Source: Sphingomonas sp.
GTDB lineage: Bacteria; Pseudomonadota; Alphaproteobacteria; Sphingomonadales; Sphingomonadaceae
Reading direction: 5' to 3'
DNA: 64,000 nt
Assembly (NCBI RefSeq): GCF_024508665.1
Contig: NZ_JANINP010000006.1
Span: 682,001 to 746,000, forward strand
The notes under the pieces are model-generated. The model ran no database searches and was not told where the DNA came from. It saw only the letters and a program-made list of their open reading frames with translations. Position 1 is the stretch's first letter, and each line of letters starts with the position of its first letter. This document shows, piece after piece, positions 25,062 to 63,510 of the stretch. Both the position numbers and the translations under genes were made by a program.

Positions 25062-25096
25062 CTGCCCGAGGCCGGTCATAGCACTTCGAAATATGC

Positions 25097-25127: not shown

Positions 25128-25358
25128 ATGAATTTCAATGCTTCGAGGCAGACGGTCCGCACCGAGCCGGCCCCTTCTCGCATTGGTGTAGATCAGGCGT
25201 GATGGGGAATTATCGATCTCATCAGACGCCGGCCTGGGCTCACTGGCCCCCGTCGATTTTCGTGTCGTCGCAGCAAATTTTCTCGCATCTCAGATGCGCG
25301 AAAATCTCAAAGCCCCTTTGCACGAAAAACTGAGCCCTCAGCCGAAACGCTCCTATTT

Positions 25359-25390
25359 TTGTCAGAAACACGTATACATATTTCTGACAA
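25359..25390. promoter_or_regulatory. Operator of the DUF6088 gene: TTGTCAGAAA-N12-TTTCTGACAA
   Basis: Perfect 10-bp inverted repeat with a 12-nt spacer containing GTATAC, ending next to the ribosome binding site AAGGAGA. The position implies autorepression. The sequence is closely related to the operator upstream of fic, 2 kb away. Confidence 0.75.
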
Positions 25391-25400
25391 GGAGACGCTG

Positions 25401-38313: not shown

Positions 38314-39928
38314 CGTCAGTCAGCATCGCACTATCGGGGTGGAACGGGTTGAACACGAATGCGCAATCGTCCGACTTGCGCTCCAGGAAGCCGAGCATTC
38401 TGAGCCGGTCCTCGAAACTCCGCTCATTCTCACGGAAGCTGGCATCAACCTCGGGCAGCTCTCCGTTGAACGCTAGCATCGCTTCCTGCGCCCCGATCAC
38501 AATGCGGTATCGTTTGAACAGGGTGTGTAGAAACGAGTCGAGTTCTACCGGACCAGTCACGTTGGCGAGTACCAGAGCCTCGATCAGCTCGTCGTTCGGA
38601 GCGTACCAGGTGCCAACACCAGCACGCGCGGTGATCGCGCCAATCTGTCGGCTATGCGCGACATACATCGCGCTTACCGAGTGCGAGCGGGGCTTCTGAA
38701 CTTCATTCAGCAGCACCTCGATCTGCTCGCTTGCACTGGGCATGTTGTAGGGATCGGAACCGATGTCGCGTTTCCACAAGAACCGTTGCTCGAGCGTGTT
38801 GCGCGCCGTCATGCTGGCTTGTTCGCTCACCTCGATCGCTTCCCACTCCTCGCTGTCGCGATACACTTCGACGAACGTCCGCATCGCCTCCGGCAGCAGA
38901 CGGCGATGGCGTTGATACATCCCCTCCGAGAGCTTGCGCAGACCATTTCCGGAAGTGCTGCCCACCATGTCGAGCACATAGGGCGGTACGTGGCCATCGG
39001 CGCCTTCGACCACCTCGACCGCGCGTTCCACGATGTAGAGAAGCAAGTTGAAGCCACTAAGACGCGCTAGCGATGCCAACGATGTCGCCACCGGCATTTT
39101 CTTGAGTGAGAGAATTGCGCGCCAATCTTCTGCCAGCCGCTCATAGGCTTCATGATAGGGGAGCGGCAGAAAACCGGTGTTGAGTGAACGCGGCACATCC
39201 TCATATGCCTCGCCGCCCATCAGCTTGCGCGCCAAGCGGTTCCAGGGGCTGTTGGCGCCGATCAGTTCATTTTGGACGAGCGTCGCTATTTCGATGCGCA
39301 GCTTCGAACGGTTGATCATTAAGTACATTAACTCGCCCGTCCGTCGCATGAAGCGACGGTCGGACGTGTGCGCGACTTCCTTGACGTCGGCAAAAAGCAT
39401 CGAGCTGCCGAGGGGCAATAGGTGTCGAGAGGTTGGCCGGCGGCTGCTATTGCCATCCACCTGCCCGCTCCGGAGCAATGCAACCGCGTTCGCGAGATCC
39501 TGGAATTGCGGGAAGGTTTTGCGCAAATGCGGCACATCCACCGGCGGCTTTGCACCTAGTTCTTCGATCCAGTTCGACCACATCGCCGAATTCTCGACGC
39601 CCGACGTTGCGATCTCGTCGATGTGTTGGTCGTTGAACAATAAATGCCGCAATCCCAGTGCCAGCGGAGCGTCGTAATTCACCCACTCATGCTCGCCTTG
39701 GCCGTTGGCATCCACGCCTGGTCCGGGAAAGATCGGTCTTTGGTGACGCGCCCGCGAAAAGCAGATGTGCAGCGTCTCAAGCACGGCCAGCCACGGCGAT
39801 TGATCATCATACAGCAACAGGCCCCAGATCGGGACCTCGCACCACAAAGTCATTTGTGTCAGCTGGAGTTGCCGGGGCAGTTCGAGACTTCCCGGGACCA
39901 GCAAGGGCGTGCGTGTGGGTTCCGGCAT
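38291..39928 (-). CDS. sspG: SspG/DptG-like component of phosphorothioation-dependent restriction
   Basis: 545 aa, no catalytic motif recognised. It opens RTPLLVPGSLELPRQLQL and is globular and helix-rich throughout, ending in an acidic tail (TDDDLDDAA). The assignment rests on its place between an F-type P-loop protein and an H-type FtsK motor, the same order and size range as dptFGH/sspFGH. It starts 2 nt after the sspF stop. Confidence 0.55.
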   Translation of the reverse strand: MPEPTRTPLLVPGSLELPRQLQLTQMTLWCEVPIWGLLLYDDQSPWLAVLETLHICFSRARHQRPIFPGPGVDANGQGEHEWVNYDAPLALGLRHLLFNDQHIDEIATSGVENSAMWSNWIEELGAKPPVDVPHLRKTFPQFQDLANAVALLRSGQVDGNSSRRPTSRHLLPLGSSMLFADVKEVAHTSDRRFMRRTGELMYLMINRSKLRIEIATLVQNELIGANSPWNRLARKLMGGEAYEDVPRSLNTGFLPLPYHEAYERLAEDWRAILSLKKMPVATSLASLARLSGFNLLLYIVERAVEVVEGADGHVPPYVLDMVGSTSGNGLRKLSEGMYQRHRRLLPEAMRTFVEVYRDSEEWEAIEVSEQASMTARNTLEQRFLWKRDIGSDPYNMPSASEQIEVLLNEVQKPRSHSVSAMYVAHSRQIGAITARAGVGTWYAPNDELIEALVLANVTGPVELDSFLHTLFKRYRIVIGAQEAMLAFNGELPEVDASFRENERSFEDRLRMLGFLERKSDDCAFVFNPFHPDSAMLTDDDLDDAA

Positions 39929-39930
39929 TG

Positions 39931-41742
39931 TCAGACCTCGAGCGTCTTGGCGTCGACGTTGCCCGACGAGCCCAGCGACAACACGAACACGTTGCTCAAA
40001 TCGCCCTCGTCGCCCTCATCGCCAAATGCCGCGCTGGTGATCAGCGCGAATTGGCGAACTTCCTGCTGACATTGACGCGAAAAGCTGGAGGGCAAGCTAC
40101 CTTCCTCCACCCGCAACAGATATTCGAACAGCAAAGGCCGGATTTCCAGCGGATCGATGGTGCCCTCGACCGACCTGCTGCGGATACGCAGCATCGGCCG
40201 CCGCCCGGCGGGATCCATCTCGAGTTTGATGTTCTGCGCCCTAGCTCCGCGCTGGATCGCATCAATTGTTGCGATCCGGCCCACAGTATCGTCCGTCCGC
40301 CCTATCGTGCCCGCGAGCCATAACTTCTCGCTCTCCTCGGTCATCATGCCGAGGTAAGCGCGATTGAGCCCCTTGATGAGACGCCGCGCAATTTGGTCGA
40401 GATAGGTCTTGTTGGCCTCGGTGTCCTCAAGGGCTGAGATCACTTCCAAATAAGTGCCCGCGTGATGAAGCACGGTGAATCGCCATGGCGACGACATACC
40501 GAGCCGGTCTGCCGACAAACGGAAGAAGGCGCGACGGCGCTGCGTCGCGATGCTGCTGCGAAAATCGTCGGCCTTGCTGCGGTCGGCGGTCACATAATAA
40601 GCGTGGTGCGCCGGGGCGAACAGCTTCTCGCCGTAGATGAGCTCGCTGCCGAAGATCTCACTGGCAACGTCTTTCGGCTCTCCTTTTGTAAGTGCTTCGT
40701 CGAGCAAATTGTTGGTCTCGTCGCCAAGGCCAAGCGTCGCCATCTGGCTGAACACCACGTTCGCGTCCCGCTGTCGCTTAGGCATATTGAGACCGAGCGC
40801 ATTTTCATACGGGTTGCAAAGCCCGTAATTGCCCTTGGCGGCACGCTGCTTCGCACGGTCGCAATCAAGCAGCGGATCATCGGGGACGCGTTTATCGCCC
40901 AGGATGATGTTGACCGCCAGCATGATCAGGTAGCGGATCGGAATATGACTGTCGTTCGCAGCGCCAATACGAAGCGCATCCTTGATCCGCGTCCTGAATG
41001 TCAGTCCGGAGCCACTATCCCCACGCAAGATCCCTTGGTTAAGACGGATCGGGCATGGATTGATCGCATCCACTCCTGGACATCCGCTACACGATGTGTC
41101 CCAATCGGGATGATTGACCACGGCGTCGAAAATGTCGTCCACTGTCTTGCCGCTCCAGCTGCGGCTGAGATTGAGCAGGATGAGGTCGAGCGCGCCTTCC
41201 TTTCGCTCGAACCGTAGCATGCGCGCCAATTCGGCATGGACGTGGGCAGCTCCGAGCGTAGTGCTGTCGCGAAAATAGCGAAGCAACTGCCCATCGTTCG
41301 CGGCAATGAGATAGCGGACATCGGTCAGCTCACCGTGCAGACATGCGATAATCGCTGCAAGCTCGGCGTCCTTCTCGTCATCTTCAAGTTCGCTGAGATC
41401 ACGAATGACGCGCAATCGAATGCCGTTGGGCAAGGTCGTTTCGAGGACCGCAGCCTCGCCAGGCCACAGCTCGGGCGCCATCTTCAGCTCCTCGAGCAGC
41501 AATTGGCGAATATGATAGGTTTTGCCGTCGCCCGCAGTGCCAGTCAGAATGACATTGTGCGGCGTTTCTCCGCATAACGCTGCCTTCAGCGCCTCGATTT
41601 GCGGGGCCGGAATGTCCATCGGTGCGACATTGAACTTGGCGAGTGCCGAGCGGACGTTCTCGTCGCTCAGTACATCGCCTTCAGGCGAAGGCCCATAGGT
41701 CCGCAGGAACGATACCAGGGGGCTCGACTGGCAGTCGCTCAC
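39931..41742 (-). CDS. sspF: SspF/DptF-like P-loop protein of phosphorothioation-dependent restriction
   Basis: 603 aa with Walker A NVILTGTAGDGKTYHIRQLL near residue 70 and a Cys cluster (CSGCPGVDAINPC) that could bind zinc. DptF proteins are P-loop ATPases of this size. The start is placed at GTG 41742, which overlaps the sspD stop (GTGA) like the other junctions in this operon; the ORF track begins three codons earlier. Confidence 0.65.
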   Translation of the reverse strand: MSDCQSSPLVSFLRTYGPSPEGDVLSDENVRSALAKFNVAPMDIPAPQIEALKAALCGETPHNVILTGTAGDGKTYHIRQLLLEELKMAPELWPGEAAVLETTLPNGIRLRVIRDLSELEDDEKDAELAAIIACLHGELTDVRYLIAANDGQLLRYFRDSTTLGAAHVHAELARMLRFERKEGALDLILLNLSRSWSGKTVDDIFDAVVNHPDWDTSCSGCPGVDAINPCPIRLNQGILRGDSGSGLTFRTRIKDALRIGAANDSHIPIRYLIMLAVNIILGDKRVPDDPLLDCDRAKQRAAKGNYGLCNPYENALGLNMPKRQRDANVVFSQMATLGLGDETNNLLDEALTKGEPKDVASEIFGSELIYGEKLFAPAHHAYYVTADRSKADDFRSSIATQRRRAFFRLSADRLGMSSPWRFTVLHHAGTYLEVISALEDTEANKTYLDQIARRLIKGLNRAYLGMMTEESEKLWLAGTIGRTDDTVGRIATIDAIQRGARAQNIKLEMDPAGRRPMLRIRSRSVEGTIDPLEIRPLLFEYLLRVEEGSLPSSFSRQCQQEVRQFALITSAAFGDEGDEGDLSNVFVLSLGSSGNVDAKTLEV

Positions 41743-42563
41743 AGATGACACACCGCACAGCCGTCATCGGCCTTCGCCTTGATTGCGCGCCGTGGCATTC
41801 GCTCGACATCGTCCAGCGAACGGCCATCGACCCAAGTGTATTTGCGCCCCCCTTTCATCGTCTCGTACGCCTTAGCTCGATCGTAGAGGGCAGGATGACG
41901 TTCCTTCAGTCCCTGCCACTCGCCGATCTGCTGATAGAAGCAGAAATAACAGCCCGAGCGGCTCCGCCATTCATAGTAATCGGGAAGGCCGAGCCCGGCG
42001 CTGTCCAGAATGCGGCCGACCTCGGCGACATCGATACAATCGTCGCGGTAAGGATAGACAGGTGTGATATTGGGTTGCTCAGAGATAACTACCGGCTTGG
42101 CGCCTGCGGTGCCCGTGCCAAGATAGCCCGAGCGGTTCTCGTCTGCCCTGATTCCAATGTAGGAATAGGCGCGGTCCGTGCCGACAAAGCGCTCGAAAGG
42201 CGCGATTTTCATGATGCGCGTACACCACCGCGCCCTAGGGCTAGGTAGAAAACCGGCGAAATGCTCGTAAAGCGCGACGTCAAAAGCCGTACGCCCGGGC
42301 TTTTCCGCAACGTCGAACATCTCCATCGCTGACACGCGATGGATTTCGATACCTAACACGTTCTCCAGTCGATCGAGGAAATCGTAGGTTTCCGGTAGCT
42401 CCACGCCGGTGTCGGAGAATACATATTCAAATTTCACATCAGGATTGCGCTGGCGCAGATAGACAGCGAGCGCCGACGAATCCTTGCCCCCTGAAATTGG
42501 AACAATATGGCGTGCCGAAGCATCGAGCACGGCATCGTCGACACTTACGCTGACTACGCTCAC
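41739..42563 (-). CDS. sspD: SspD/DndC-type PAPS reductase-family ATP pyrophosphatase
   Basis: 274 aa with the PP-loop HIVPISGGKDSSALAVYL (SGGxDS), RWCTRIMKIAPFERF, and Cys-rich GCYFCFYQQ and C-terminal CAVCHL. This is the adenylyl/sulfur-handling family to which DndC and SspD belong. It activates the DNA phosphate and passes sulfur from the cysteine desulfurase into a phosphorothioate bond. GTG start overlapping the sspC stop. Confidence 0.85.
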   Translation of the reverse strand: MSVVSVSVDDAVLDASARHIVPISGGKDSSALAVYLRQRNPDVKFEYVFSDTGVELPETYDFLDRLENVLGIEIHRVSAMEMFDVAEKPGRTAFDVALYEHFAGFLPSPRARWCTRIMKIAPFERFVGTDRAYSYIGIRADENRSGYLGTGTAGAKPVVISEQPNITPVYPYRDDCIDVAEVGRILDSAGLGLPDYYEWRSRSGCYFCFYQQIGEWQGLKERHPALYDRAKAYETMKGGRKYTWVDGRSLDDVERMPRRAIKAKADDGCAVCHL

Positions 42564-45500
42564 CGTGCCCCTCCCACAATCTTCATATCCTCATCCGCCG
42601 CAATGTCTTCGCCGCCGTCGATCTTGGCAAGCATCTGACGCAAGTCAGCAACTTTCGCTTCGATAATGGGGCGAAGCGCAGCCCGCGGCGTATCGGTATC
42701 CAGCGATGCCGCCTCGACGCGTTCGCGCGCTTCGCGCAGGGCAGTGCGGAATTGCGGCGCAGTGCGGTCATCCCACTTGTCGAGGCTTCGCTGGAGGAGA
42801 ATCGAGCTTAAGGCATTCGCCAGCGACTTTTCCGAGAAGCGGCCATTAGCCGTCTCCAGAGCTTTGCGAACCACCGAGCGATCGACGATCCGCAATGCCG
42901 ATGCTCGATCGAGATCCTCCATGTCGAAGCAGCCGGCCCAACCCTTGATTGCATCCACGGCCACCGCGCTATCGGGCGCGTATCGTTCAAAGCTGCTCCG
43001 GATCACCTCGACCGCCTCGTCAGCATAATCATCTCTCAGCCGGTCTATTTGGTGACGCGCTTGCTCGACACGTTCAACCAGCCTGACCGTCGGTCCGGAC
43101 ATACCGAAAGCGCCGGGGATGTCGTGAATCAATAGCTCGATGGGGTCGTTCGCATTGCCGACGGCGCGCAGCAACGCCTTAGCATGCTGACCAAGGCGGT
43201 TGGATCGACGTGCCCCATCAGTCACCGTCAACAGCCAGCCTTGTGCTGCGTCATAGGCTGCGCGCACCAGCTCATCGCCCGCTGCTGGCCGCTCATGCCT
43301 GAAGGCGTAGCAGATCTCGGACAGATACTCGGTGAGTTCCGTCGTGATCTTCAACACTCGCACGCAATAGGCGTCAGATGCCGACACCATCGTGTCGAAT
43401 GGGAAGCCCATGATATCGGGCACGTAGACGCCGTCACGGTAGAGGGCGATCGCGCGTGCGAAGTGCTTGTAACCGGCCGCAATCAGCACGGGCATCACTG
43501 CCCGAGGTAGCCCAATCGGCGGCGCAGCGAGCTTATTCGTCAGATCGGCCAGGGACCTGTATCGCGAGGTGCGACCCTGCGTCGGCTGCCGGAAGAACGC
43601 GGCAATTTCGGTCCATACTTCCCTCAGACCGGGATCGGCGATCTGGTCAGGATCGGCGAATCGCTCCTCTTCGGCGCGTCGCAGCCCAGTGCGCTCGACG
43701 ACCGTGCGGTAGATGGATGCCTCGGCACTGCCGTCGCCTTCCTCGTAGCCGAGGCTAGCGCGATCGCTGCGCTCGAGAATCGCACTCACCACCCGCACGC
43801 GCGCTGTCTGCATCGTCCGCGATGCCGCCGTACGCATCAGCTGTTCATTGGCGATGCGCGGGGTGTCCCGATACCAGCTGCTGAGCAGCCGAGACGCGGC
43901 CACCGAAGCGGGGCGCTCCGCTGTCACGTTCAATTGCTCACCAGCGCTATACCACCGCGCATGAGTGCCGCTCGGATCGAGAAGGACACGCATCAAACGC
44001 GCTAGCTGTTCGAATGCGACTGAGTGCAACTCGTCCACCTCAGTCGGAATCATCGGGTCAGATGCGAGGAAATCGGCATCGGCACGGAGCGCCTCGATCG
44101 CGACAAGCTCGAGTGCGGCGCCAGTGATATCCAAAGGACGGTCGGGAATAACCAGCACCCAGCGCTCCGCATCCCAAGCCGCGATCAACTTGCGCGCCCG
44201 CTCGATATCGGCGCGGTCCTCGGCGAGGAGATACCCGACCATTCCGCTGGACCCAGCATCTACGGCGACTGGCGATGCAAGTTCGCGCGGCAACAAATAG
44301 CGCCCTTCGAGATAACGATTGACGCCGAAGTCCGCGTTGTGTCCCGGCGCGCGCACGTGCGGCGCAGGAAAACGCTCATCAAGGAAGGTTCTTAGATCAA
44401 ATTCGCCCGAGCGTCGGTCACGCTCTTCGCGCACCCGCAGTGCGACATCGATGTCCGCACCATGCCAAACCGCGACATCGTCATTGTGCTGGCGCCACAA
44501 CAGCAAGCGTGACGAGACCAGCTCATCGAAGGAGCGCGCGATCGTCTGAGCGGTATTGATATCGCTTGCTACGGCCAGTTCCACCACCGCCCGTGGAACG
44601 CGTCTGCGTTCGCCACTGCCACCAAGCTGTAGCAGGCACGCTGCTGCCAAGAGTTCGCGTTTGAGCGGACTGTTGGCGCGGGAGCGCGCGCTTTCCGTCT
44701 CGACCCAGCGGCGATACGTACCTCCGATCCCGACGTCGGTACGCATCGCATCGGCGAATGCGACATAAACCTCTTCAATTCCGACCGGAAATCCCAAATC
44801 CTGTTCACGCAGGAACGAGAACAGGCTGCGCTCGTTTTGCCCGACCCGTGCCACCAATGTCGGAAGCACCTGCAGCGCGCCGGGTGACAACGGCGCCGCC
44901 CCCTTGAGCAACGCCGACACCCGTTGTTCTTCGGACATGCCGTCGAACCAACCAGCAGCAATCGCGGCCTTCACAAGTGCGGTGGGTGGCGAGGCGGGAT
45001 ACCCGCTGGTCTCGCGAAGGCTCGTAACCACCTCAGCGACGAGTTCGAAGAATTCCTGACTGTCCTCGATCAGGCGAAGCGCCGCAAAGCGACCTTCGAT
45101 CTTCCGCCACTCGTTACGCGACGTCTCGTTAAGACGCGTCGCATAGGCGAGCAGATTCTGATGCAGAAGTAGAGTCAGGCTGAGACTAGGTTCGTCCGCG
45201 CGCGCGACGCGCTCTGCAAGCCGCTGGATGATATCCAGCTCGCTCGAACGACCATCGGCGATAAGGCCTTCCAAGTGGCGACCGAACTCGTCCCAGATGA
45301 TCGCGACATGGTCCCAGCCGGCCTCTCGCATTGCCTTGCCAAAACCCTCAACGGACTTCGGGGCGTGTTTCATGCCGATCGCTTCGGAAATGGCGGCAAG
45401 CGGATCGCCAACTAGGCCCGACAGCACCACGACTTTGCCACGCACCGGCGCGGTCAATCGTCCGTTCAGCGCCTGCGCAAGACCGGCGTCGACGCGGGCG

Positions 45501-45751
45501 ATGCGAGCGCTCAGATGCGCCAAATCAGCTTGAGTTTCGGTGGCGTTTTCGACGAACAGCGCTCCAACCCCAGCAGCGAGGCTCTTTCCGCTGCCATAAG
45601 GGGCGATGACCATTGTCGCGGCGCCCGCGCGCAACACCTGGGCCACGATCGGCAAGGCGCGCCCAGTCGGATGATAATGAAGAAATCGGTCGGGATGGGG
45701 CAGGTCCTCGGCCAGGCTCATTGATCGGAAGAAAGCGGTCTGCGCGGTCAT
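42560..45751 (-). CDS. sspC: SspC-like large ATPase of the single-strand phosphorothioation system
   Basis: 1063 aa. An N-terminal ATPase domain has TMVIAPYGSGKSLAAGVGAL (Walker A, about 50) and VAIIWDEFGRHLEGL (Walker B-like). The rest is long, helical and unassigned. SspC proteins are ATPases of about this size, placed between SspB and SspD. It overlaps both neighbours by 4 nt. It is presumed to couple ATP use to target access for SspB/SspD. Confidence 0.75.
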   Translation of the reverse strand: MTAQTAFFRSMSLAEDLPHPDRFLHYHPTGRALPIVAQVLRAGAATMVIAPYGSGKSLAAGVGALFVENATETQADLAHLSARIARVDAGLAQALNGRLTAPVRGKVVVLSGLVGDPLAAISEAIGMKHAPKSVEGFGKAMREAGWDHVAIIWDEFGRHLEGLIADGRSSELDIIQRLAERVARADEPSLSLTLLLHQNLLAYATRLNETSRNEWRKIEGRFAALRLIEDSQEFFELVAEVVTSLRETSGYPASPPTALVKAAIAAGWFDGMSEEQRVSALLKGAAPLSPGALQVLPTLVARVGQNERSLFSFLREQDLGFPVGIEEVYVAFADAMRTDVGIGGTYRRWVETESARSRANSPLKRELLAAACLLQLGGSGERRRVPRAVVELAVASDINTAQTIARSFDELVSSRLLLWRQHNDDVAVWHGADIDVALRVREERDRRSGEFDLRTFLDERFPAPHVRAPGHNADFGVNRYLEGRYLLPRELASPVAVDAGSSGMVGYLLAEDRADIERARKLIAAWDAERWVLVIPDRPLDITGAALELVAIEALRADADFLASDPMIPTEVDELHSVAFEQLARLMRVLLDPSGTHARWYSAGEQLNVTAERPASVAASRLLSSWYRDTPRIANEQLMRTAASRTMQTARVRVVSAILERSDRASLGYEEGDGSAEASIYRTVVERTGLRRAEEERFADPDQIADPGLREVWTEIAAFFRQPTQGRTSRYRSLADLTNKLAAPPIGLPRAVMPVLIAAGYKHFARAIALYRDGVYVPDIMGFPFDTMVSASDAYCVRVLKITTELTEYLSEICYAFRHERPAAGDELVRAAYDAAQGWLLTVTDGARRSNRLGQHAKALLRAVGNANDPIELLIHDIPGAFGMSGPTVRLVERVEQARHQIDRLRDDYADEAVEVIRSSFERYAPDSAVAVDAIKGWAGCFDMEDLDRASALRIVDRSVVRKALETANGRFSEKSLANALSSILLQRSLDKWDDRTAPQFRTALREARERVEAASLDTDTPRAALRPIIEAKVADLRQMLAKIDGGEDIAADEDMKIVGGAR

Positions 45752-46635
45752 GCCGCTGCCTCGATGCGGTCGTACAGGTCCGTCAGCCAGTCGGTCATCA
45801 ACCGCGGTGCCACGACCAGCATGCGTTCGCCGGCGAGCGAGTCGAGATGCGCGTGCGGAGAGACGGCCACCGCGTTTGCGACCATCGTCTCCAGTGCGTC
45901 CAACCCTGCGCAGAATATCCTCCCCGGCCCGTCCTTCATCGTCGCGAGTTCTCGGAGTGAGAAGGCGCCGCGGCCACTATCCTCAACCAGCGATGACACG
46001 CAGGCAAGCAGCGCTTCGTGCGGCACGCCGGCTGGGGCTCGCGTGCGCTCGAAGCGCTGGACATGCGCATGCCGAAAGATGAGACCTAGCTCGCGCAAGG
46101 GGCAAGCACCCAAATCGTCCGGATCAACGTAATCAACGCCCGGACGGCTGGTATACGCGGCCAACAGGCAAGCGACGTCCTTCTGCGCAACCTGCGGCGT
46201 TGCCGGCCGAATGGCGCGAGAGCGCGTGTGCTCGAGAAACGCGTCGATACAACCGTTGCGGTCAAATATGCGCTCGGAATAATGATTGAAGAACCAGGAC
46301 CAAACCGTGCCAGGTGCGCACACCAGCGAAAGGTGGAGAAACCACCAAGTTCCTGGGAGTTCGCAGAAGGCGTCGCGTTGCGCGATCAGTCGCGCCATCT
46401 CCGATGCGCCGCGGGCCTTTGTGTCGCCCTCTTCGGCGGTGAGCCCCATTGCGCGGAGCCAGAAGCTTAGCGACTCGACCATTTTTGAGCCTAGCCCGAG
46501 GGCATCGGCCATTTCGGTCGATGCTGAAAAGCTGCCTGAACTGACGAGCCGATCGATACCCTTAGGCAACCAGCCGTACCGCACGGGAAAGGTATAGTGA
46601 CCGCCATAGGCGTAACGTTGCTGGGGGATGGTCAC
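45748..46635 (-). CDS. sspB: SspB-like DUF4007 protein (nicking component)
   Basis: 295 aa opening YGGHYTFPVRYGWLPKGIDR then ALGLGSKMVESLSFWLRAMG, the characteristic DUF4007 start. SspB makes the nick needed for single-stranded phosphorothioation. The start is GTG overlapping the cysteine desulfurase stop (GTGA), and its stop overlaps the sspC start (ATGA). DUF4007 is what separates this locus from the double-stranded DndBCDE type; no dndB, dndD or dndE is present. Confidence 0.82.
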   Translation of the reverse strand: MTIPQQRYAYGGHYTFPVRYGWLPKGIDRLVSSGSFSASTEMADALGLGSKMVESLSFWLRAMGLTAEEGDTKARGASEMARLIAQRDAFCELPGTWWFLHLSLVCAPGTVWSWFFNHYSERIFDRNGCIDAFLEHTRSRAIRPATPQVAQKDVACLLAAYTSRPGVDYVDPDDLGACPLRELGLIFRHAHVQRFERTRAPAGVPHEALLACVSSLVEDSGRGAFSLRELATMKDGPGRIFCAGLDALETMVANAVAVSPHAHLDSLAGERMLVVAPRLMTDWLTDLYDRIEAAA

Positions 46636-47834
46636 GGTCGCCCTCGCATCCGGTCGACCGTCCCCGAGATTACTGCGATCGCGTGATTGATCTCGCTGAG
46701 TTGGTTATTGACCGACAGCGAGATGCGGATGGTCGAAAAGGCGTCCGCTTCACTCAGCCCCATAGCCACTAGCACATGAGAGGGTTCTGGGCGCCCGGTT
46801 GAGCATGCGGATCCCTGCGACACCCTGATGCCTTGCGCGTCGAGATTGGCGACAAGAGCCATCGCATCACAGTTAGCGAAGGTTACGTTTGTTACGTTCG
46901 GCAAGCGTGAACTCGCAGAGCCATTGATTATTGCCCCCTCGATCCGACAGAGCCCTTGCTCGATATGACGATGCAACGCTTCAAGATGGCGACGTCGATC
47001 GATCCGGTGGAGCGCCCACTCGTCGACAGCGGCGCTAAGACCCGCAATTGCGGGCACCGCCTCGGTGCCCGCGCGTATGCCTCTTTCCTGTTCGCCGCCC
47101 TTTAGCAATGCGCGCAGCGGAATCGCACTGTCGTCAGCAACGATAATTGCTCCGATCCCCATAGGACCATGGATCTTGTGTCCGGACATAGTCACCACAT
47201 CTGGGCCGACGCCTCGGCCCAGATTGATTTCGATCTTGCCCATCGCTTGGGCGGCGTCGGCATGAAAATAACAATGCTGACATTCTCCGACGATCGCAGC
47301 AATCGCAGCGGCATCCTGCAGCACGCCGGTTTCGGAATTCGCCAACTGCAGCGACACCAAGCATGGCCCATTGGCGCTGCGCACAGCTACGTTCAATGAT
47401 TCGAGATCGATCCTTCCACCGCGATCCACCGGCAAAATAGTGACATCGCTACCGACCTGAGCAAGCGCCTTGGCAGTTGTCAGGACTGATGGATGCTCCA
47501 CCGCAGAGGTGACTATCCGCGCTCGGCCGCCCGCAAAGCTCGACAGCACCAAGTTATTCGCCTCTGTGCAGCCCGAGGTGAAGACGACGCCATCATCGAA
47601 CGCCCCATTCACCAAGGCCGATAGCGAATCGCGCGCGGCGGTGAGCACGTCACGTGATGCGTTACCTCGCCCATGTCCGCTCGAGGGATTGCCATGACGA
47701 TGAGACATGGCCGCCACGACCGCAGCGATCACCGCGGGCGTAGGCGCGGTGTTCGCGCTCGCATCGAGATCGACAGCTGCCGCATCTATCATCGCGCCCT
47801 CGCGCAACGACGACGCGACCGCTTCAAAATTCAT
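46632..47834 (-). CDS. sspA: Cysteine desulfurase (SspA/DndA/IscS-like), first gene of the ssp operon
   Basis: About 400-aa PLP enzyme: HADAAQAMGKIEINL, MSGHKIHGPMGIGA (PLP Lys) and SQGSACSTGRPEPSHVL (catalytic Cys loop). It provides persulfide sulfur for DNA modification. Two adjacent ATGs occur; AGGAGA is 6 nt from the second (47834) and only 3 nt from the first (47837), so the second is preferred. The promoter must lie in the short gap before the relaxase gene. Confidence 0.88.
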   Translation of the reverse strand: MNFEAVASSLREGAMIDAAAVDLDASANTAPTPAVIAAVVAAMSHRHGNPSSGHGRGNASRDVLTAARDSLSALVNGAFDDGVVFTSGCTEANNLVLSSFAGGRARIVTSAVEHPSVLTTAKALAQVGSDVTILPVDRGGRIDLESLNVAVRSANGPCLVSLQLANSETGVLQDAAAIAAIVGECQHCYFHADAAQAMGKIEINLGRGVGPDVVTMSGHKIHGPMGIGAIIVADDSAIPLRALLKGGEQERGIRAGTEAVPAIAGLSAAVDEWALHRIDRRRHLEALHRHIEQGLCRIEGAIINGSASSRLPNVTNVTFANCDAMALVANLDAQGIRVSQGSACSTGRPEPSHVLVAMGLSEADAFSTIRISLSVNNQLSEINHAIAVISGTVDRMRGRP

Positions 47835-47849
47835 CATAGTCTCCTAGCC

Positions 47850-48085: not shown

Positions 48086-50050
48086 TCATGCTATCGTCGG
48101 CCCGGATCGGCCGCGGCCGAACTGCCAGCTGATCCCGTCCGTACGCATGATGCCGGAAGCGGCCTTGCCGATGTTGCGTTCGAGCACCTCGCGCCACGGC
48201 ACCAGCGTGAAATCCCGCGACCGTTCGACGAGCGCATAGCTGCCGCTTTCTAGATCGACGCGCCTAGCGATCACGCCCTCGACCCGCTCGCCGTTGCGCG
48301 CTGGCTCGAACGGCTTGCCCATGTGCTGGGACAGCTGGGCTCCAACATGGCGCACTTCGCGCCGGCCGAGCTCGTCGAGCGCGCCGCTCCGCAAACGGAA
48401 CGCGCGGCCGTCACCTGCCGCCAATTGTTGCTCGATCAGCCATTGTCGCCGCGCCGCGAGCGCCGTCCTGACTTCGCGCCCGAAGCCGGCGTCGCGGAAT
48501 GGTTCCGCGGCGCCCGGCGCCAGCTCGCGGTCGAGCCAGGTCGGCGCCTCGATCGCGACAAGGTCCCCGACGGGCCGAAGTGAGAGGATCGACAGCGCAA
48601 CCGGGCGGTCGCGCTGCTGCCGCTGCGCGAAGGCTTCCGCCCGGTCGAGATGGTTCTGCGGGATGGACCAGCTACCGTCCGCCAGTCGCTCGGGTCCCGT
48701 GCCCGCGCGCCGCATGGCTTCGAGCCGCCGGACATGGCTCGCCGCATAGGCTTCGCTCGCCGTCGGATCGTGCCGCAGATGAAGGTCGACCGAGTAGCGC
48801 CCGCCATTGGCGCGGGCAACCGCATCGACAGTTCGATCCGCCTGGCTCGCCTCTGCCTTTGTCGGCTCGATCCGCACCGTCGCGTTCTCGGGTACAGATG
48901 GGGTGGCGTCGCCACGCCCGATGTCGACATAATGGACCCGGCCATCAATGCCGTCGATCATCATGTAGTGACGGTCGCGATACTCGTCAGAGAAGCCGCG
49001 CTGGATCAGCCGCCCGACGACGGGTTCGCGCAGCTCCGTCGCCACCACCTGCTCTACCCCTGCGCGGTCGAGCCGGCGGGCGGTCAGCTCGCGCTGCATC
49101 AGCCGGATGATGTCGCCGCGCTCGCCCATGCGGCGTAGCGTGTCCTCGAGCCCGTCGGCGAGCCGGTAGCGGCCGCCGCCGATGTCCTCGGCAAGGTCCA
49201 TCGCCTTGAGCTTGCGCAGCCGCCCGGCCGCGATCGTCCGCTGGAAGGGATCGTTGTCGGCCGACAACACCATCCGGTCGGCATCCATCCGGCGCAGCAG
49301 ACGGCGGTCGATCGCGGTCAGCCGCTCCTGGTCGACATCGTGGCGCAGGCGGGCCTCGATCTCGCGATCGGTACGTGGCCCCAGGTCGAGCGTGACCAGC
49401 TCGGACGCGCGCTCGCGTAGCCCGTGCGAAATATACTCGCGTGCGATGATGAGATTGTCGCCCCGATCATCGACGCCGCGCAGGACGACATGGGTGTGCG
49501 GGCGCTCGGTGTTGAAGTGGTCGACAGCGACCCAGTCGAGCTTCGTGCCGAGATCGTGCTCGACCTGTGTCATCAGCCGCCGGACATAGGGTTTGAGGTC
49601 GGGATATTCGGCGCCGTCCTCGGCCGAGACAATGAAGCGGAACTGGTGCCGGTCATGCGCCGTGCGCTTGAGGAAATCGTCGCCGTCCGCGCGGTCGGTG
49701 TCCGGGCCGTAGAGCTCGCCCGGCAAACCCTCGCGCGTAACCCCGTCGCGCTGGATGTAGCGCATATGCGCGCGGGCGATCTGGCCGGCCTTGCCGGCGA
49801 GCCGGATCAGGCTCGCCTTCACGACGGCGCGGCGCCCGCGAAATCCTGCCAGTCGGTCTCGGCTGGAGAGCAGCCGCCCCATGCTCGCGCCGCGACCGAT
49901 GCGGCTGCCGTCGAAGCGGCATGCCTTGACCCCGGTCTTGGTACCGGCGAGGCGAGCGGCGGCGAGGATGCGACCGCCATATTTGACGACTTTCTTGCCG
50001 TCCTTGCCGCGCGTCCGGCCGAGCTTGGGGGTGAAGTAGTCGTCAGGCAT
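48086..50050 (-). CDS. rlxS: Relaxase / mobilisation nuclease (DUF3363, VirD2-like)
   Basis: 654 aa starting MPDDYFTPKLGRTRGKDGK. RHQFRFIVSAEDGAEYPDLK and VAVDHFNTERPHTHVVLRG (HxH metal-binding motif) form the catalytic relaxase domain; the C-terminal half is DUF3363. It nicks oriT and pilots single-stranded DNA during conjugation. The ORF-track start adds 40 residues that translate the oriT palindromes; the ATG at 50050 is preferred. Its presence next to traF and an excisionase-like gene is typical of ICEMlSym-type elements. Confidence 0.88.
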   Translation of the reverse strand: MPDDYFTPKLGRTRGKDGKKVVKYGGRILAAARLAGTKTGVKACRFDGSRIGRGASMGRLLSSRDRLAGFRGRRAVVKASLIRLAGKAGQIARAHMRYIQRDGVTREGLPGELYGPDTDRADGDDFLKRTAHDRHQFRFIVSAEDGAEYPDLKPYVRRLMTQVEHDLGTKLDWVAVDHFNTERPHTHVVLRGVDDRGDNLIIAREYISHGLRERASELVTLDLGPRTDREIEARLRHDVDQERLTAIDRRLLRRMDADRMVLSADNDPFQRTIAAGRLRKLKAMDLAEDIGGGRYRLADGLEDTLRRMGERGDIIRLMQRELTARRLDRAGVEQVVATELREPVVGRLIQRGFSDEYRDRHYMMIDGIDGRVHYVDIGRGDATPSVPENATVRIEPTKAEASQADRTVDAVARANGGRYSVDLHLRHDPTASEAYAASHVRRLEAMRRAGTGPERLADGSWSIPQNHLDRAEAFAQRQQRDRPVALSILSLRPVGDLVAIEAPTWLDRELAPGAAEPFRDAGFGREVRTALAARRQWLIEQQLAAGDGRAFRLRSGALDELGRREVRHVGAQLSQHMGKPFEPARNGERVEGVIARRVDLESGSYALVERSRDFTLVPWREVLERNIGKAASGIMRTDGISWQFGRGRSGPTIA

Positions 50051-50071
50051 CACACGGGCCTGAGTCTCGCG

Positions 50072-50194
50072 ATTTCGCAGCGAAATTGGCGGAAAACCGC
50101 CATTTACCAAAATCGTATCTCGCAGGTGGTGCGAGACAGTCTCGCGAAAAAAGGATGTGCAGACAATCACTTAAGCAGTGGCGCGAGACACTGC
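50072..50194. other. Candidate origin of transfer (oriT): cluster of five palindromes
   Basis: Directly upstream of the relaxase start lie ATTTCGC-A-GCGAAAT (50072-50086), TGGCGG-AAAA-CCGCCA (50087-50102), TCTCGCA-N5-TGCGAGA (50118-50136), GCGAGAC-A-GTCTCGC (50131-50145) and GCAGTG-N8-CACTGC (50175-50194). The heptamer GCGAGAC recurs. Adjacent inverted repeats beside the relaxase gene are the standard look of an oriT. The nick site cannot be located from sequence. Confidence 0.65.
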
Positions 50195-50894: not shown

Positions 50895-51506
50895 TCAATC
50901 CCCCTTCGACAGCGCCACGAACAGCGACGACCCGGGGGTGGAAGCCGACGCCTCGGAGGGGGTCTTCACATCGCGCCGAACGGCAAAGATAGAGGGCGGC
51001 AGCACCGGCGTGGCGGCCACCGGGACGCTCGGCACTGGCGATCGCGGCGCGACGCTGGCGAGATAGCCGACCGTCTCGGCAGGCAGAGCGCGGCCTCCGG
51101 CCAGATACTCGGCATAGCGGCCCGGCCCTGCATTATAGGCAGCGAAGAGGCCCGGATAGCCGAAGCGATCGTACATCAGCCTGAGATACAGGGTGCCCGC
51201 CAGGATGTTGTCGCGCGGGTCGTCCGGGTCGGCGCCGAGCCCGAGCCTTGCACGCATGTCGGCCCAGGTCGCGGGCATCAGTTGCATTAGGCCCGTCGCG
51301 CCTGCCGACGAGCGGATCGGGCGACCGTCGAGAGTCGTCTGGCCCCGGCTCTCCGCCTGCATGACCCGCTCGATCCAGGCTGTCGGCACGCCGAACCGGG
51401 CGGACGCTTCGGCGATATAGGGCCGCCAGTCGGCGACCGATTCCGCCTGTGCCGGCGCGGCAACGGCGAGGCTGGCGACGCCCAGCATGATCCTTACCGC
51501 GCCCAT
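50895..51506 (-). CDS. Lytic transglycosylase (conjugation-associated)
   Basis: 203 aa with a short signal peptide (LGVASLAVAAPAQAE) and the SLT domain: RVMQAESRGQ with the catalytic Glu, SSAGATGLMQLMPATW, and LFAAYNAGPGRYAEY. It opens the peptidoglycan for the transfer apparatus. The start at 51506 overlaps traF by 13 nt; Met 51488 is an alternative just before the hydrophobic stretch. The long ORF-track extension is out of frame with traF and spurious. Confidence 0.85.
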   Translation of the reverse strand: MGAVRIMLGVASLAVAAPAQAESVADWRPYIAEASARFGVPTAWIERVMQAESRGQTTLDGRPIRSSAGATGLMQLMPATWADMRARLGLGADPDDPRDNILAGTLYLRLMYDRFGYPGLFAAYNAGPGRYAEYLAGGRALPAETVGYLASVAPRSPVPSVPVAATPVLPPSIFAVRRDVKTPSEASASTPGSSLFVALSKGD

Positions 51507-52075
51507 AGCGGCCGCGCCCCGCCGACGATGTCGGCGCTTTCGGTCACTCCAAAATAGCGCCCGTCGAACGACGCCGGCGTATCCATCAGCAGGAACAGCT
51601 GGCGACCGCGCAGCCGCACGCAGCCCGACCACATCGGCATCGGCCGGCCCGCGCCATCGGCGGCCGACCGCTCGGCGATCCAGCGTCCGTTGACGAAGAT
51701 TTCCTGGCCGAGCGCGCAGACCTCGTCGCCCGCAGAGGCCACGACCCGCTTCACCAGCGGCACGTTCATCGGCAGGTAGCGGCGGGTCGCGGCGAGCCGC
51801 CGATACGGTTCCGGCACCCGCGCGACGACCATGTCGCCTGGCTCTGCGGGGGCACCCGGAGACACCGCGTAGAGGCCGATCGGCGCGCTGGCCGAGGCAT
51901 TCCAGACCAGCCGCGGGGCCGGAGGAAACACCGCGGTGGCGAGCAGCGCGACGCCGCCGATCGCGCCGATCGCTGCCCATCGGATCAGGCGTTTGCGCCG
52001 AGCCTTGGCCGCGCGCAGGGCGTCGCCCCAAGCGAGGAGCGGCGCGTCGCCGCTGGCATGCGAGCGCCGGTTCAT
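51494..52075 (-). CDS. traF: TraF-type S26 signal peptidase
   Basis: 193 aa: one N-terminal membrane segment (about 30-50, WAAIGAIGGVALLATAVF), catalytic Ser in SASAPIGLYAV and Lys in NVPLVKRVVASAGDEV, ending DSADIVGG-type box residues. TraF peptidases process conjugative pilin. The ATG overlaps the HTH gene stop (ATGA). The order HTH-traF-...-rlxS matches the rdfS-traF-rlxS arrangement of ICEMlSymR7A. Confidence 0.85.
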   Translation of the reverse strand: MNRRSHASGDAPLLAWGDALRAAKARRKRLIRWAAIGAIGGVALLATAVFPPAPRLVWNASASAPIGLYAVSPGAPAEPGDMVVARVPEPYRRLAATRRYLPMNVPLVKRVVASAGDEVCALGQEIFVNGRWIAERSAADGAGRPMPMWSGCVRLRGRQLFLLMDTPASFDGRYFGVTESADIVGGARPLWAR

Positions 52076-52302
52076 GCGCGCGGCTCCCGCCCGCCGCTGT
52101 CGCGGCTCCACGCGTCGAGATCGTCGATATGGTATTGGACGAAGCGGCAATGGCGGCGGAACGCCGGTCCCTTGCCCGCCCGCCGGAGCCGCTTCAGCGA
52201 CTTCGAAGAGATCTTGAGATAGGCGGCGGCCTGGTCGGTGGTGAGGAAGGGCGAGCCGCGCTTGGCGCGGCCTGCCCGGTCGATGTCGCTGTCGTCCTGC
52301 AT
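52072..52302 (-). CDS. rdfS: Excisionase-like HTH protein (candidate recombination directionality factor)
   Basis: 76 aa with a MerR/HTH_17-type DNA-binding domain: FLTTDQAAAYLKISSKSLKR, then a wing with FRRHCRFVQYHIDDLDAW. Such small HTH proteins act as excisionases. In ICEMlSymR7A rdfS is the FseA-activated gene placed before traF, and this gene has the same position, overlapping traF by 4 nt. The symbol is given by synteny; a plain AlpA-like regulator is the alternative. Confidence 0.68.
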   Translation of the reverse strand: MQDDSDIDRAGRAKRGSPFLTTDQAAAYLKISSKSLKRLRRAGKGPAFRRHCRFVQYHIDDLDAWSRDSGGREPRA

Positions 52303-52381
52303 GCTGGTCGGGGTCCGTTGCTCGCGGCGGCGGAAGTGCCGGCGCGTCCCCGAGCATCCGGACCGGGACCCGCTGCGGGGA

Positions 52382-52409
52382 GTGTCGAAACGATTTCGCG
52401 TTCCGACAC
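52382..52409. promoter_or_regulatory. Nested palindrome upstream of the excisionase-like gene
   Basis: GTGTCG...CGACAC encloses CGAAA-CGA-TTTCG in the 126-bp gap between DUF736 and rdfS. It may be the binding site of an activator such as FseA, or the DUF736 terminator. No T-run is present. Confidence 0.35.
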
Positions 52410-59793: not shown

Positions 59794-60078
59794 CTATCGC
59801 ACCGAGCCGCGCACGCGATTGCGGGGAAGCGTGCCGAACGCCTCGATTGCGGCACCGAGGCCATCGCCGACGATCCAGCGCGCGCGGGCGAGATGGCTGT
59901 CCCAGCACGCCCGCGCCCGCTCCGCATCGATGACGGGATCGATCCCAAGGATGTCGAGCGCCCCTGCCAGCCAGTCGACCCCGGCGTCTGCCGCGTCGAG
60001 CAGTTCGGCATAGGTCAGGAGATTGCGCCGGTCATAGTCGAGGACCGAATCACTCGCGGGTGCGAGGCGATCAAGCAT
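59794..60078 (-). CDS. Hypothetical 94-aa protein divergent from the XRE repressor
   Basis: Starts MLDRLAPASDSVLDYDRRNL and continues acidic and helical (LLDAADAGVDWLAGALDILG). Strong GC3 bias matches real genes; the ribosome binding site is weak. I do not recognise a domain. Its position, divergent from a two-operator XRE repressor, is that of the antiactivator qseM in ICEMlSymR7A, but I see no DUF2285 similarity, so this is only a positional suggestion. Confidence 0.5.
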   Translation of the reverse strand: MLDRLAPASDSVLDYDRRNLLTYAELLDAADAGVDWLAGALDILGIDPVIDAERARACWDSHLARARWIVGDGLGAAIEAFGTLPRNRVRGSVR

Positions 60079-60174: not shown

Positions 60175-60229
60175 TACATCAAGTTGGTGTAAGAACCAAT
60201 GCCGGTCAGGTTCACATCAAGTTGATGTG
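60175..60229. promoter_or_regulatory. Paired operators of the XRE repressor
   Basis: TACATCAAGTTGGTGTA (60175-60191) and CACATCAAGTTGATGTG (60213-60229) are two copies of a 17-bp near-palindrome centred 38 bp apart, between divergently arranged genes. The second is perfect around its central base and abuts GGAGG of the repressor. Two-site divergent control matches QseC-type regulation. Confidence 0.7.
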
Positions 60230-60237
60230 GAGGACTG

Positions 60238-60477
60238 GTGGCACGAGGCATCCACGATAGTCGCTATCGCTGGGTGATCGAGCAGCTGATCGAAGCCCGG
60301 AAGCGTCAAGCGCTGACGCAGCAGGCCGTGGCCGACAAGCTCGGCAAGCCGCAGCAATATGTCTCCCGGTACGAGACCGGTGAGCGGCGGCTCGACATAT
60401 TCGAATATCTCGATGCCGCCGCCGCGCTCGAGATCGACGCGCTCGGCCTGATAGCGACCGCCCCGAAGACGCGCTGA
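60238..60477 (+). CDS. XRE-family transcriptional repressor (QseC-like by context)
   Basis: 79 aa: HTH RKRQALTQQAVADKLGKPQQ then YVSRYETGERRLDIFEYLDA, a compact Cro/CI-type domain without an effector region. GTG start with GGAGG 5 nt upstream. It faces fseA and sits beside its own paired operators. In ICEMlSymR7A QseC controls the antiactivator QseM from such an arrangement. The domain call is firm; the QseC role is inferred. Confidence 0.85.
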   Translation: MARGIHDSRYRWVIEQLIEARKRQALTQQAVADKLGKPQQYVSRYETGERRLDIFEYLDAAAALEIDALGLIATAPKTR

Positions 60478-60485
60478 ACGGCCTG

Positions 60486-61206
60486 CTAGATCGTCCGCGC
60501 GAGAACGGCCGATGGTCCGGCGCGCATCAACTCGGCCGCCAGCCGCACCCTGCGCCGCGCGCGGGATTTGAGATGCTCGCCGTCGCCGGGCCAGTCTTCG
60601 CCCAATATCCCGAGCGCGATGTCGCGCAGGCTCGCCCCGGCCGCGAGCGCGTCGGCGGCGCGCAGCGCCTCGACGTGGCGGACGAAGCGCTGGTCGCGTG
60701 ACGGGGATGCGCATCCGCGCAACAGCGCGTCGAGCCGCCGGATCGCGGCCAGCTGCGACTCCAGATCACGCCCCAGATCCAACGCGGGTTCGATGCACCC
60801 GCCGCCTGTCACAAAGTCGCCGACAAGGTCCAGGCGCAGCGCGCCATCGTGCAGATCGAACCGGACGTGACAACAGTCCTCGCCTCGCCGGACGAAGTGC
60901 GGAAAGCGGTACAGGTCGATCGCCCCACCCGATGCCGACGGCGCAAGAATGCGGGCACGCAGCACATGCGGGTCGGCCGCCGCCGTCCACATATAGGGCG
61001 CGACGGCGCAGTCCTGCGCCGGATCAGCCGCGAAAGTGCAGCCCCCAGCGCGAAGCGGCTGCACGGGCCGAATCATCCCGGGCAACGAACGCCCGATAGG
61101 CCGGATCGCGCCGCAGCAGCTCCCAGGCCAGCGCGGGCCGACCGCCCAAGAGCACCGGCGCGTAGGCATCGGCATCGCGCCAGTCGGGCGGCGACCAGCG
61201 TGGCAT
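60486..61206 (-). CDS. fseA: FseA-like excision activator: DUF6499 + DUF2285 joined by a +1 frameshift
   Basis: The upstream frame (61206-61024) reads MPRWSPPDWRDADAYAPVLL ... SRWGLHFRG and stops, a DUF6499 domain. The downstream frame, open from before 61030 to 60486, continues FAADPAQDCAVAPYMW and ends in a DUF2285 HTH-type domain (RHVEALRAADALAAGASLRD then RRRVRLAAELM). At the junction the mRNA is CAC UUU CGC; slipping tRNA-Phe from UUU to UUC gives HF-AADP, restoring one chain of about 239 aa. In ICEMlSymR7A msi172/msi171 are fused by a programmed +1 frameshift to make FseA, which activates rdfS. The ATG overlaps the phyH stop (TGATG). Confidence 0.82.
61030..61041 (-). other. Predicted programmed +1 frameshift site (CAC UUU CGC)
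   Basis: The UUU-C run (AAA on the plus strand at 61033-61035) lies exactly where DUF6499 stops being conserved and DUF2285 begins. The zero frame ends at UGA three codons later. A sequencing indel would look the same, but both flanks are well preserved. Confidence 0.7.
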
Positions 61207-62063
61207 CACCCGTCCTGTCCGGCGAGGAAGGCTGCCGCCATCGCCTCCTGGTCCGGCCGCAGCGCGTCGATCGCGCCGAGATGCTCGGGACGGTCGTCGC
61301 GCAGCAACACCGAGGGGCATTGGCCTTCGACATTGCCGAGATTGGGCCGATGCTGGGCATAGCCCACCAATGCCGCCAGCTCGAGCGAGAAGGTGCGCGC
61401 GATCGCCGGCGGATAGACCAGCCATTGAAGCTCGAACGGCTTGAGCCAACCCAGGCAATAGCTGACGATCACGCCGCGGCGCGGTGCCGTCGAGACATTG
61501 CCGCCACCGCCATGCAGCGTCGAGCCGAGGAAGAGCAGCGCGTCGCCTGGCCCGACCTCGGGCACGACCGCGTCATGCTCGGGCAGATCGACCGCATCCT
61601 GGTCGGCATGGCTGCCGGGCCAGAGCCGCGTCCCGCCATTGTCGGGCGTGAACGGGTCGAGCGGCCACATGATGTTGACCAGATATTCGATGCCACCCTT
61701 GGGACCGCCCCACATGTCCTGGTCGCGGTGCGGAAACTGCGCGGGCGCGCCCGGATGGATCTCGACCGCCTGGGTCAGATTGAGGGCGATGCGCTCGCAC
61801 CAGGGCAAAAGCATCTGCTCGGCGATCGCCAGCACGACCGGATGGCGCACCAGCGCCTCGGCATGCGGCGACCTGCGAAGCAGCGCCCCAAACCGCCGCG
61901 TACGATTGCCGTAGAAGACGCCTTGGCACATCGGCGTAGCCTCGAAGCTCGGCGCAAGATCGGCCGTCAGCGCTTCGACCGCCGACGCCGAGACGGCGCC
62001 GCGCAGGACATGATAGCCATCGCGCGCCAGTTCGCCGGCGCCGATATCGACCAGGGCGCTCAT
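61206..62063 (-). CDS. Phytanoyl-CoA dioxygenase (PhyH)-family Fe(II)/2-oxoglutarate oxygenase
   Basis: 285 aa. HxD iron ligands lie in QFPHRDQDMWGG and the distal His in LFLGSTLHGGGGNVS; RRGVIVSYCLGWLKP carries the Arg that would bind 2-oxoglutarate. It is coupled to traI (ATGA) and fseA (TGATG), so it is made only when the quorum-sensing promoter is on. The substrate is unknown; a fatty acyl chain of the AHL or its precursor is an attractive inference. Confidence 0.82.
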   Translation of the reverse strand: MSALVDIGAGELARDGYHVLRGAVSASAVEALTADLAPSFEATPMCQGVFYGNRTRRFGALLRRSPHAEALVRHPVVLAIAEQMLLPWCERIALNLTQAVEIHPGAPAQFPHRDQDMWGGPKGGIEYLVNIMWPLDPFTPDNGGTRLWPGSHADQDAVDLPEHDAVVPEVGPGDALLFLGSTLHGGGGNVSTAPRRGVIVSYCLGWLKPFELQWLVYPPAIARTFSLELAALVGYAQHRPNLGNVEGQCPSVLLRDDRPEHLGAIDALRPDQEAMAAAFLAGQDG

Positions 62064-62662
62064 GCCGCCAGCTCCAGCAAGCCGGTATAGGTGCCGGTCC
62101 AGGCGAGCCGCTCGCGCATGTCCGGCGTGACCTCGATGCGGAACGCTCCGATCGGTCCGCCTTCGATGCGCAGCGAGGGGCCGAGCGGCTCGGCCCGCCA
62201 GCCCATGGCGAGCACCTCTCGACGGAAGGCTTCGGGAATGACGCCGGTGATGTGCTCGATGCCGCGCGCCAGCGCGAAGTCGGCCATTGCCGAGATCAGC
62301 GCGTTGCGCAGTTCCTTGCGGCGCGCGGCGCCGTGACGGCTCGGCAGGCAGAGCCGTGTGCTTTCCCAGGTCGAAGGGCCGACCGGCACGCCGCCGATGC
62401 AGATGTGCGGGAAGATGTCGCCGAGCAGATGGGGCAGCCAGCTCGGCAACATGCGGAGCGACGCCTCGTGCCGGCCGCTTTCGTCGATCGCGACGAGATA
62501 GACGGCGTGCGGCGTGTCGAACTGGTCGATCTCGTAGCGGCCCTCGACGACCGGCACGTCCCATCGGAAGAAGTCGACGAACTGCGCCTTGCGGTCCGCG
62601 AACATGGTTTCGAGCGCGAATGCGTGTGCGCTCTCGGGGTAATCGTCGATCGTGAGGATCAT
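62060..62662 (-). CDS. traI: Acyl-homoserine-lactone synthase (LuxI/TraI family)
   Basis: 200 aa with the invariant LuxI pattern: R-x-F-W region (RKAQFVDFFRWDVP), EIDQFDTPHAVYLVA, ASLRMLP, GPSTWESTRLCLP (the E-x-x-R of the active site) and AMGWRAEPLG. It makes an AHL from SAM and acyl-ACP. It lies 77 nt downstream of traR; the leader holds a lux-box-like palindrome and a hairpin that pairs the ribosome binding site. Confidence 0.92.
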   Translation of the reverse strand: MILTIDDYPESAHAFALETMFADRKAQFVDFFRWDVPVVEGRYEIDQFDTPHAVYLVAIDESGRHEASLRMLPSWLPHLLGDIFPHICIGGVPVGPSTWESTRLCLPSRHGAARRKELRNALISAMADFALARGIEHITGVIPEAFRREVLAMGWRAEPLGPSLRIEGGPIGAFRIEVTPDMRERLAWTGTYTGLLELAA

Positions 62663-62739: not shown

Positions 62740-63510
62740 TCAGCTCCGGCGCAGCTCGTCCAGGCCGATCTCGCCGGCAAGCAGGGCGGCGGCGACCAGC
62801 TCGGTCCGGTCGCTGGCACCGAACAGCTTGCGGGCGTCGCGCAGATAGCTCTCAATCGTGTCCTCGCTCAGCCCAAGGCGATGTGCGATGGCCTTGTTGC
62901 GCAGGCCACGTCCGACCAGCACCACGCAGTCCCGATAACGCGGCGCGAGGCGCGGCTCGGGTCCGGGCAAAAGCGGGCCGGCGAGCCGGCGGGCGCGCTG
63001 GAAGGCGAAGACGCCGAACATCTGGGCCGGCGCCAATGCCAGCTCGGCCATGCGTGGCGAGCGAAAGCCCGCGAAGGTGCAGGAGCCGAGGCAATGACCG
63101 AGCTTGCCACACGGAACCGTGATGCCTTCGTTGAGCCCCTCGCGGCGTCCGAACTCCAGCGCGAGACGGTCCTGATGGTCGAGGGTGATGATGTCCCGCA
63201 GCTCGGACCAGAGAAACGCGCTGTCGGCGAAGAGGCAGCCACGCATGACGGGATCGCGGCGGTAACGGCAGCCGCCGATGATCCGCCGCTCCACGCCCTC
63301 GGCATAATCGCGGATATCGACGGCGCCCGGCTTCGGCGCGCGCAGATCCTCGTGCGTGATCAGTGCGAAGTGCCGGCTGCGGATCTCGTCGCTGAAGTCG
63401 CGTGTCAGCTGGCGGAGCGACCTCCAGTCGTCCGCCGCCCGTATCGTTCGCAGAATATCGTCCGCCAGGCCGAAGCCGAAAGCGGTCGACGAGCGGCTGC
63501 TTCCAGCCAT
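62740..63510 (-). CDS. traR: TraR/LuxR-type quorum-sensing regulator
   Basis: 256 aa. The N-terminal autoinducer-binding domain (about 15-165) contains YRRDPVMRGCLFADSAFLWS with the conserved Asp-Pro and Trp, and GRREGLNEGITVPCGKLGHC. The C-terminal GerE HTH (about 190-250) has GRGLRNKAIAHRLGLSEDTI. AGGAGG precedes the ATG. It lies directly upstream of traI on the same strand, the standard regulator-synthase pair, and presumably activates the traI-phyH-fseA operon at high cell density. Confidence 0.9.
   Translation of the reverse strand: MAGSSRSSTAFGFGLADDILRTIRAADDWRSLRQLTRDFSDEIRSRHFALITHEDLRAPKPGAVDIRDYAEGVERRIIGGCRYRRDPVMRGCLFADSAFLWSELRDIITLDHQDRLALEFGRREGLNEGITVPCGKLGHCLGSCTFAGFRSPRMAELALAPAQMFGVFAFQRARRLAGPLLPGPEPRLAPRYRDCVVLVGRGLRNKAIAHRLGLSEDTIESYLRDARKLFGASDRTELVAAALLAGEIGLDELRRS

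Follow-up and report, generated by a model that had tools for sequence, protein, structure and literature searches.

A two-frame fseA gene with a conserved UUU-C junction in a sphingomonad ICE

In the 64,000-nucleotide stretch of Sphingomonas DNA analysed here (the window), one minus-strand region most probably encodes FseA, an activator of ICE excision that would be made from two reading frames by a +1 slip and would switch on rdfS. We put the probability of this whole explanation at about 93%. The gene order, both FseA domains, a conserved slip site, constraint on two frames, a box before rdfS and a QseM match are all present. For an FseA-type switch there is experimental precedent (PMC10359603, PMC5882170, PMC5009743). 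The fseA locus is laid out as follows:

61024..61206, minus strand: fseA part 1, the zero-frame DUF6499 ORF of 60 aa with the C-terminus WGLHFRG-stop (PF20109, E 8.9e-12)
60486..61031, minus strand: fseA part 2, the +1 frame with a middle region and the DUF2285 DNA-binding domain (PF10074, E 2.3e-8; dN/dS 0.26-0.39 against the three closest relatives)
61032..61035, minus strand: slip site UUU-C, where tRNA-Phe is proposed to move from UUU (61035-61033) to UUC (61034-61032); TTT is conserved in two-frame loci
61042..61047, minus strand: SD-like UGGGGG, coding for W-G, with the slip codon 6 nt downstream; GGG bias at the Gly codon

The zero frame runs from ATG 61206-61204 to TGA 61026-61024, and the junction on the minus strand reads TGG GGG CTG CAC TTT CGC GGC TGA, with a C at 61032 after TTT. 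Read in +1, the protein goes on as F-AADP, which gives a fused FseA of 239 aa. A sequence-only reading had described this two-frame gene at 60486-61206, and its account proved exact to the base. In Pfam, PF20109 is DUF6499, now named Trans_reg_dom, and PF10074 is DUF2285, now RovC_DNA-bd, with a score above the cut-off. The DUF6499 of the window carries AWELLRRD, comparable to the AWEFLRRN-like motif of the FseA N-terminus, and both domains were matched in 7/7 fused relatives. The nearest relatives (63-64% identity) are also two-frame, and the named records among the relatives are sphingomonads or bins. A plasmid search gave matches of 36% at best, and no relative was confirmed among the viral contigs searched.

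The neighbouring genes correspond to a quorum-sensing operon and to the partners expected of FseA:

62740..63510, minus strand: luxR-type regulator (PF03472, E 1.1e-12; PF00196, E 1.1e-7)
62060..62662, minus strand: luxI-type AHL synthase (PF00765, E 1.6e-20)
61206..62015, minus strand: phyH, Fe/2OG dioxygenase family (PF05721, E 2.7e-25)
60238..60477, plus strand: qseC-like XRE repressor, divergent from qseM (PF01381, E 1.3e-11)
60213..60229, no strand assigned: QseC-type operator candidate 2, CACATCAAGTTGATGTG, kept in the alignment of relatives
60175..60192, no strand assigned: QseC-type operator candidate 1, TACATCAAGTTGGTGTAA, kept in the alignment of relatives
59794..60078, minus strand: qseM, a lone DUF2285-type antiactivator (match to PDB 7uqt, 'Quorum sensing master protein', E 7.8e-10; syntenic in relatives)

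The genes luxR, luxI, phyH and fseA point in one direction. The phyH stop TGA at 61208-61206 overlaps the ATG of fseA by its A (TGATG), and the true start of phyH probably lies a little before the listed one, close to the stop of luxI. Given this close packing, luxI, phyH and fseA would be co-transcribed as one operon. Of the 23 named relatives, 20 have the order luxR-luxI-phyH-fseA-qseM. Further loci arrange luxR, luxI and phyH differently, either divergently or downstream of fseA. The product of qseM had no match in Pfam. The gene at 60238-60477 is called QseC-like because an XRE gene stands in the expected place of QseC, and the two operator candidates are palindromes between it and qseM.

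Beyond the fseA/qseM region, the window contains ardC, parB, DUF736, rdfS, traF and a DUF3363 relaxase gene, in an order that is kept in relatives. The following features matter most here:

52382..52409, minus strand: FseA-box-like inverted repeat GTGTCGGAACGCGAAATCGTTTCGACAC, upstream of rdfS, with arms kept in 16 relatives
52072..52302, minus strand: rdfS, HTH_17 recombination directionality factor (PF12728, E 7.5e-11; 89-95% identity in the closest relatives)
51494..52357, minus strand: traF, S26 peptidase, ORF as listed (PF10502, E 9.4e-23); the real start probably lies near 52070, past rdfS
48086..50170, minus strand: relaxase-type protein, DUF3363, RlxS-like (PF11843, E 2e-129)

In the 16 relatives the arms of the box are separated by a spacer of 12-15, and the distance of the box from rdfS is nearly constant at about 104-107 bases; it is absent from three rdfS loci that are more distant. 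The box of the window has a spacer of 12 and begins about 104 bases upstream of rdfS, and its near relatives share a spacer of 12-13. In the published FseA box of R7A the hexamers stand 16 apart, in others 15 or 16, and one of the R7A hexamers lies at 62-67; the different spacing and place of the window's box count against the preferred explanation. Outside the window lie genes for T4CP, VirB4 and an integrase (C6:774431-774919) adjoining a tRNA-Leu (775717-775803); a search with the 3' end of this tRNA-Leu found no left att copy of the ICE, a negative that likewise counts against the explanation. The sequence-only reading had named the gene fseA, and this identity is backed by both domains, QseM, the QseC-like gene, RdfS, TraF, the relaxase and the box-like repeat before rdfS.

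The window also carries other genes worth recording. A lower-GC stretch at 32908-47837 holds a cargo defence cluster matched by the PADLOC models SspA, SspB, SspC, SspD, SspF, SspG and SspH (DNA phosphorothioation type). A Hen1-type RNA repair protein is encoded at 18940-20346 (PF12623, E 1.8e-105), while positions 23496-26039 encode a Fic-domain protein and, after it, a DUF6088 protein.

The two-frame arrangement was followed through DUF6499-matched loci from 301 genomes of the host's own family, in which DUF2285 was placed by a custom-built profile. DUF2285 lay in the +1 frame at 105 of the 110 loci with both domains, a share that is no estimate of frequency, as these loci were picked by score and partly so as to avoid long single frames. 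The published share in two frames is about 61% of 4709 homologues (PMC10359603). Two of the 105 were duplicates, and among the remaining 103 the slip codon is TTT in 101, although TTT makes up only 31% of Phe codons elsewhere in the same genes. When the loci are clustered at 60% identity, TTT is found in 56/58 clusters and TTTC in 55/58. Family loci with long open frames served as a control set; they comprised 23 single-frame homologues and two further two-frame loci, both with TTT. TTT at the junction occurred in 1 of the 23, the others having TTC, Tyr codons or other sequence. The contrast between two-frame loci (103/105 non-duplicate) and in-frame ones (1/23) gives a Fisher p of 2e-21, a value that relatedness makes optimistic and with which the clusters agree. 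An alignment search added 24 loci with named records, partly from the same genomes as the first set; the slip could be placed in 23 of them (L145 was left out), with TTT in 23/23, TTTC in 22/23 and TGA two or three codons later in 22/23.

Conservation of the +1-frame protein begins at the slip codon itself, as F-[P/A]-x-x-P, with F in 101/103 loci and P four residues on in 102/103. In both halves of the gene dN/dS is well below 1 for all informative pairs, although some dS values exceed 1 and are only rough. Judged by these ratios, both halves of fseA are under purifying selection.

This evidence bears on three other explanations. If one extra T, from a sequencing error or from decay, had split an intact fseA, the same picture would arise from an indel of one base in one genome, and single-frame homologues with TTC do exist; yet 105 non-duplicate family loci are equally two-frame, 103 of them with TTT, the nearest relatives share the arrangement, and selection acts on both frames. 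The sequence-only reading had named an in-frame gene with one T fewer and homologues without UUU-C as the findings that would speak against it. Independent loci do retain both frames and the UUU-C junction, so a spurious T is very unlikely; on the evidence of these homologues, the two-frame fseA is neither a sequencing error nor a decayed gene. If RNA polymerase slipped on the T run, the mRNA would be in frame and would give the same protein as a ribosomal slip. Documented RNA polymerase slippage, however, involves much longer runs than the three T found here, UUU-C allows clean re-pairing in the P site, and the SD-like element before it is a signal to ribosomes. We regard the chance of this route as negligible.

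There is a small chance that two separate proteins are made instead, with DUF2285 translated from its own start or by reinitiation and pairing with DUF6499 afterwards. Two ATG codons do occur in the +1 frame, at 61175 and 14 codons past the slip, and, as the case of QseM shows, DUF6499 can be contacted by a DUF2285-type domain on its own (PMC10359603). Against this, the start codon is not conserved in position at any single site. Moreover, in 37/103 loci an upstream stop in the +1 frame is followed by no ATG, GTG or TTG before the slip, which puts the conserved F-x-x-x-P stretch beyond the reach of ordinary independent initiation there. The slip codon is also fixed as TTT although Phe is mostly TTC elsewhere, and FseA of R7A is a fused protein (PMC10359603). 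A +1 slip at UUU-C is thus the reading we prefer, and comparison of sequences supports adding the fseA of the window as a new member to the FseA (msi172-msi171) +1 frameshift family already known, in which the frameshift itself is presumed to operate here as well.

By analogy with ICEMlSymR7A, slippage would occur in the host cell in the following way. Ribosomes would translate DUF6499 up to UUU, where the internal SD-like UGGGGG six bases upstream would probably make them pause while UUU occupies the P site. For a small share of them, tRNA-Phe would re-pair with UUC one base on and FseA would be completed; the remaining ribosomes would reach the stop after two further codons and let go of the 60-aa DUF6499 peptide. 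Excision of the ICE would be limited by this recoding, as the sequence-only reading proposed. FseA is predicted to bind the inverted repeat before rdfS and turn on rdfS-traF, after which RdfS would drive the integrase towards excision of the ICE. As the presumed antiactivator, QseM, itself repressed by QseC, would block FseA by binding to its DUF6499 part.

The codons before the slip are biased as well. At the WG position, Gly is encoded by GGG in 81/102 loci, compared with 17% elsewhere in the same genes; where Arg stands just before TTT, it is CGA in 34/36 two-frame loci, compared with 10%; and Leu in the slip context is TTG or TTA in 58/100, compared with 11.5%. By these usage figures, codon choice in the upstream slip context is under selection (GGG; CGA for Arg). 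The RBS-like UGGGGG has already been described for FseA (PMC10359603), and the FseA literature searched, to which the 2015 PNAS FseA paper did not belong, contained no mention of the CGA bias. For release factor 2, weak E-site pairing has been proposed to favour +1 shifts (PMC5009743). CGA before the slip codon could fit such pairing; the window itself has CAC there. In the zero frame the A site mostly holds CCC or CGC. An evident slow codon or stop that could drive the slip is thus missing, which counts against the preferred explanation.

The box before rdfS has a counterpart elsewhere in the genome. A whole-genome pattern scan found it at only 2 places, each before an rdfS gene; the second (G000:C7:17092-17123; L190, L212) precedes an rdfS-traF-relaxase cluster, whose contig also carries T4SS genes. 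When the genome was searched for DUF6499 and DUF2285, only two places were found, both on C6, and no FseA on C7. A weak apparent DUF2285 match lay at C7:71327, but the custom profiles detect neither domain there. A second two-frame fseA of the same genome lies at about 5500-6270 of L085 (G000:C6:1254000-1266000), directly after a luxI; it has a TTT-C junction with DUF2285 in +1, and its zero frame stays open for 212 codons beyond the slip. Since the C7 cluster has the same box and no FseA was found on its contig, a single rare slip could set two elements in motion. We consider it doubtful, as a joint reading, that a frameshift-gated FseA also triggers the ICE-like element on C7 and that the slip context of the family (internal GGG, E-site CGA) defines a +1 frameshift class that works without a stop codon.

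With these loci, a rare and tidy example of programmed +1 frameshifting gains a large natural set, and in-frame relatives provide the controls for its slip site. Annotated gene sets are liable to lose the N-terminal half of such genes (PMC10359603).

Among known systems, sphingomonad novR-novI-phyH clusters share the order luxR-luxI-phyH; in the parts of the two reports seen, the gene after phyH is hypothetical or other genes are named, and no link to fseA or ICE excision appears (PMC5012321, PMC4288048). Both papers leave the function of the luxI-phyH pair open, and the present layout suggests ICE switch-on as a role for it. RovC, the Yersinia T6SS activator (PDB 6xz5) after which PF10074 is named, shares the DUF2285 domain; in a sequence search of the PDB, however, the fused FseA had no match. 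In prfB (release factor 2), too, the P-site tRNA slips +1 with an SD-like element upstream, whereas the fseA of the window has no A-site stop codon, slips at UUU-C rather than CUU-U and has an SD-like spacing of 6 nt. The SD-like element of prfB lies 3 nt from its slip codon. ICEMlSymR7A FseA (msi172-msi171, Mesorhizobium) differs in its operon, which is traI2-msi172-msi171 there and luxI-phyH-fseA here, and in its box, whose spacer is 16 there and 12, further upstream, here. The likeness, drawn from the published description, comprises DUF6499 and DUF2285 in two frames with a conserved +1 site, the RBS-like UGGGGG at WGL, the QseM/QseC partners and an rdfS-traF target operon with an inverted-repeat box.
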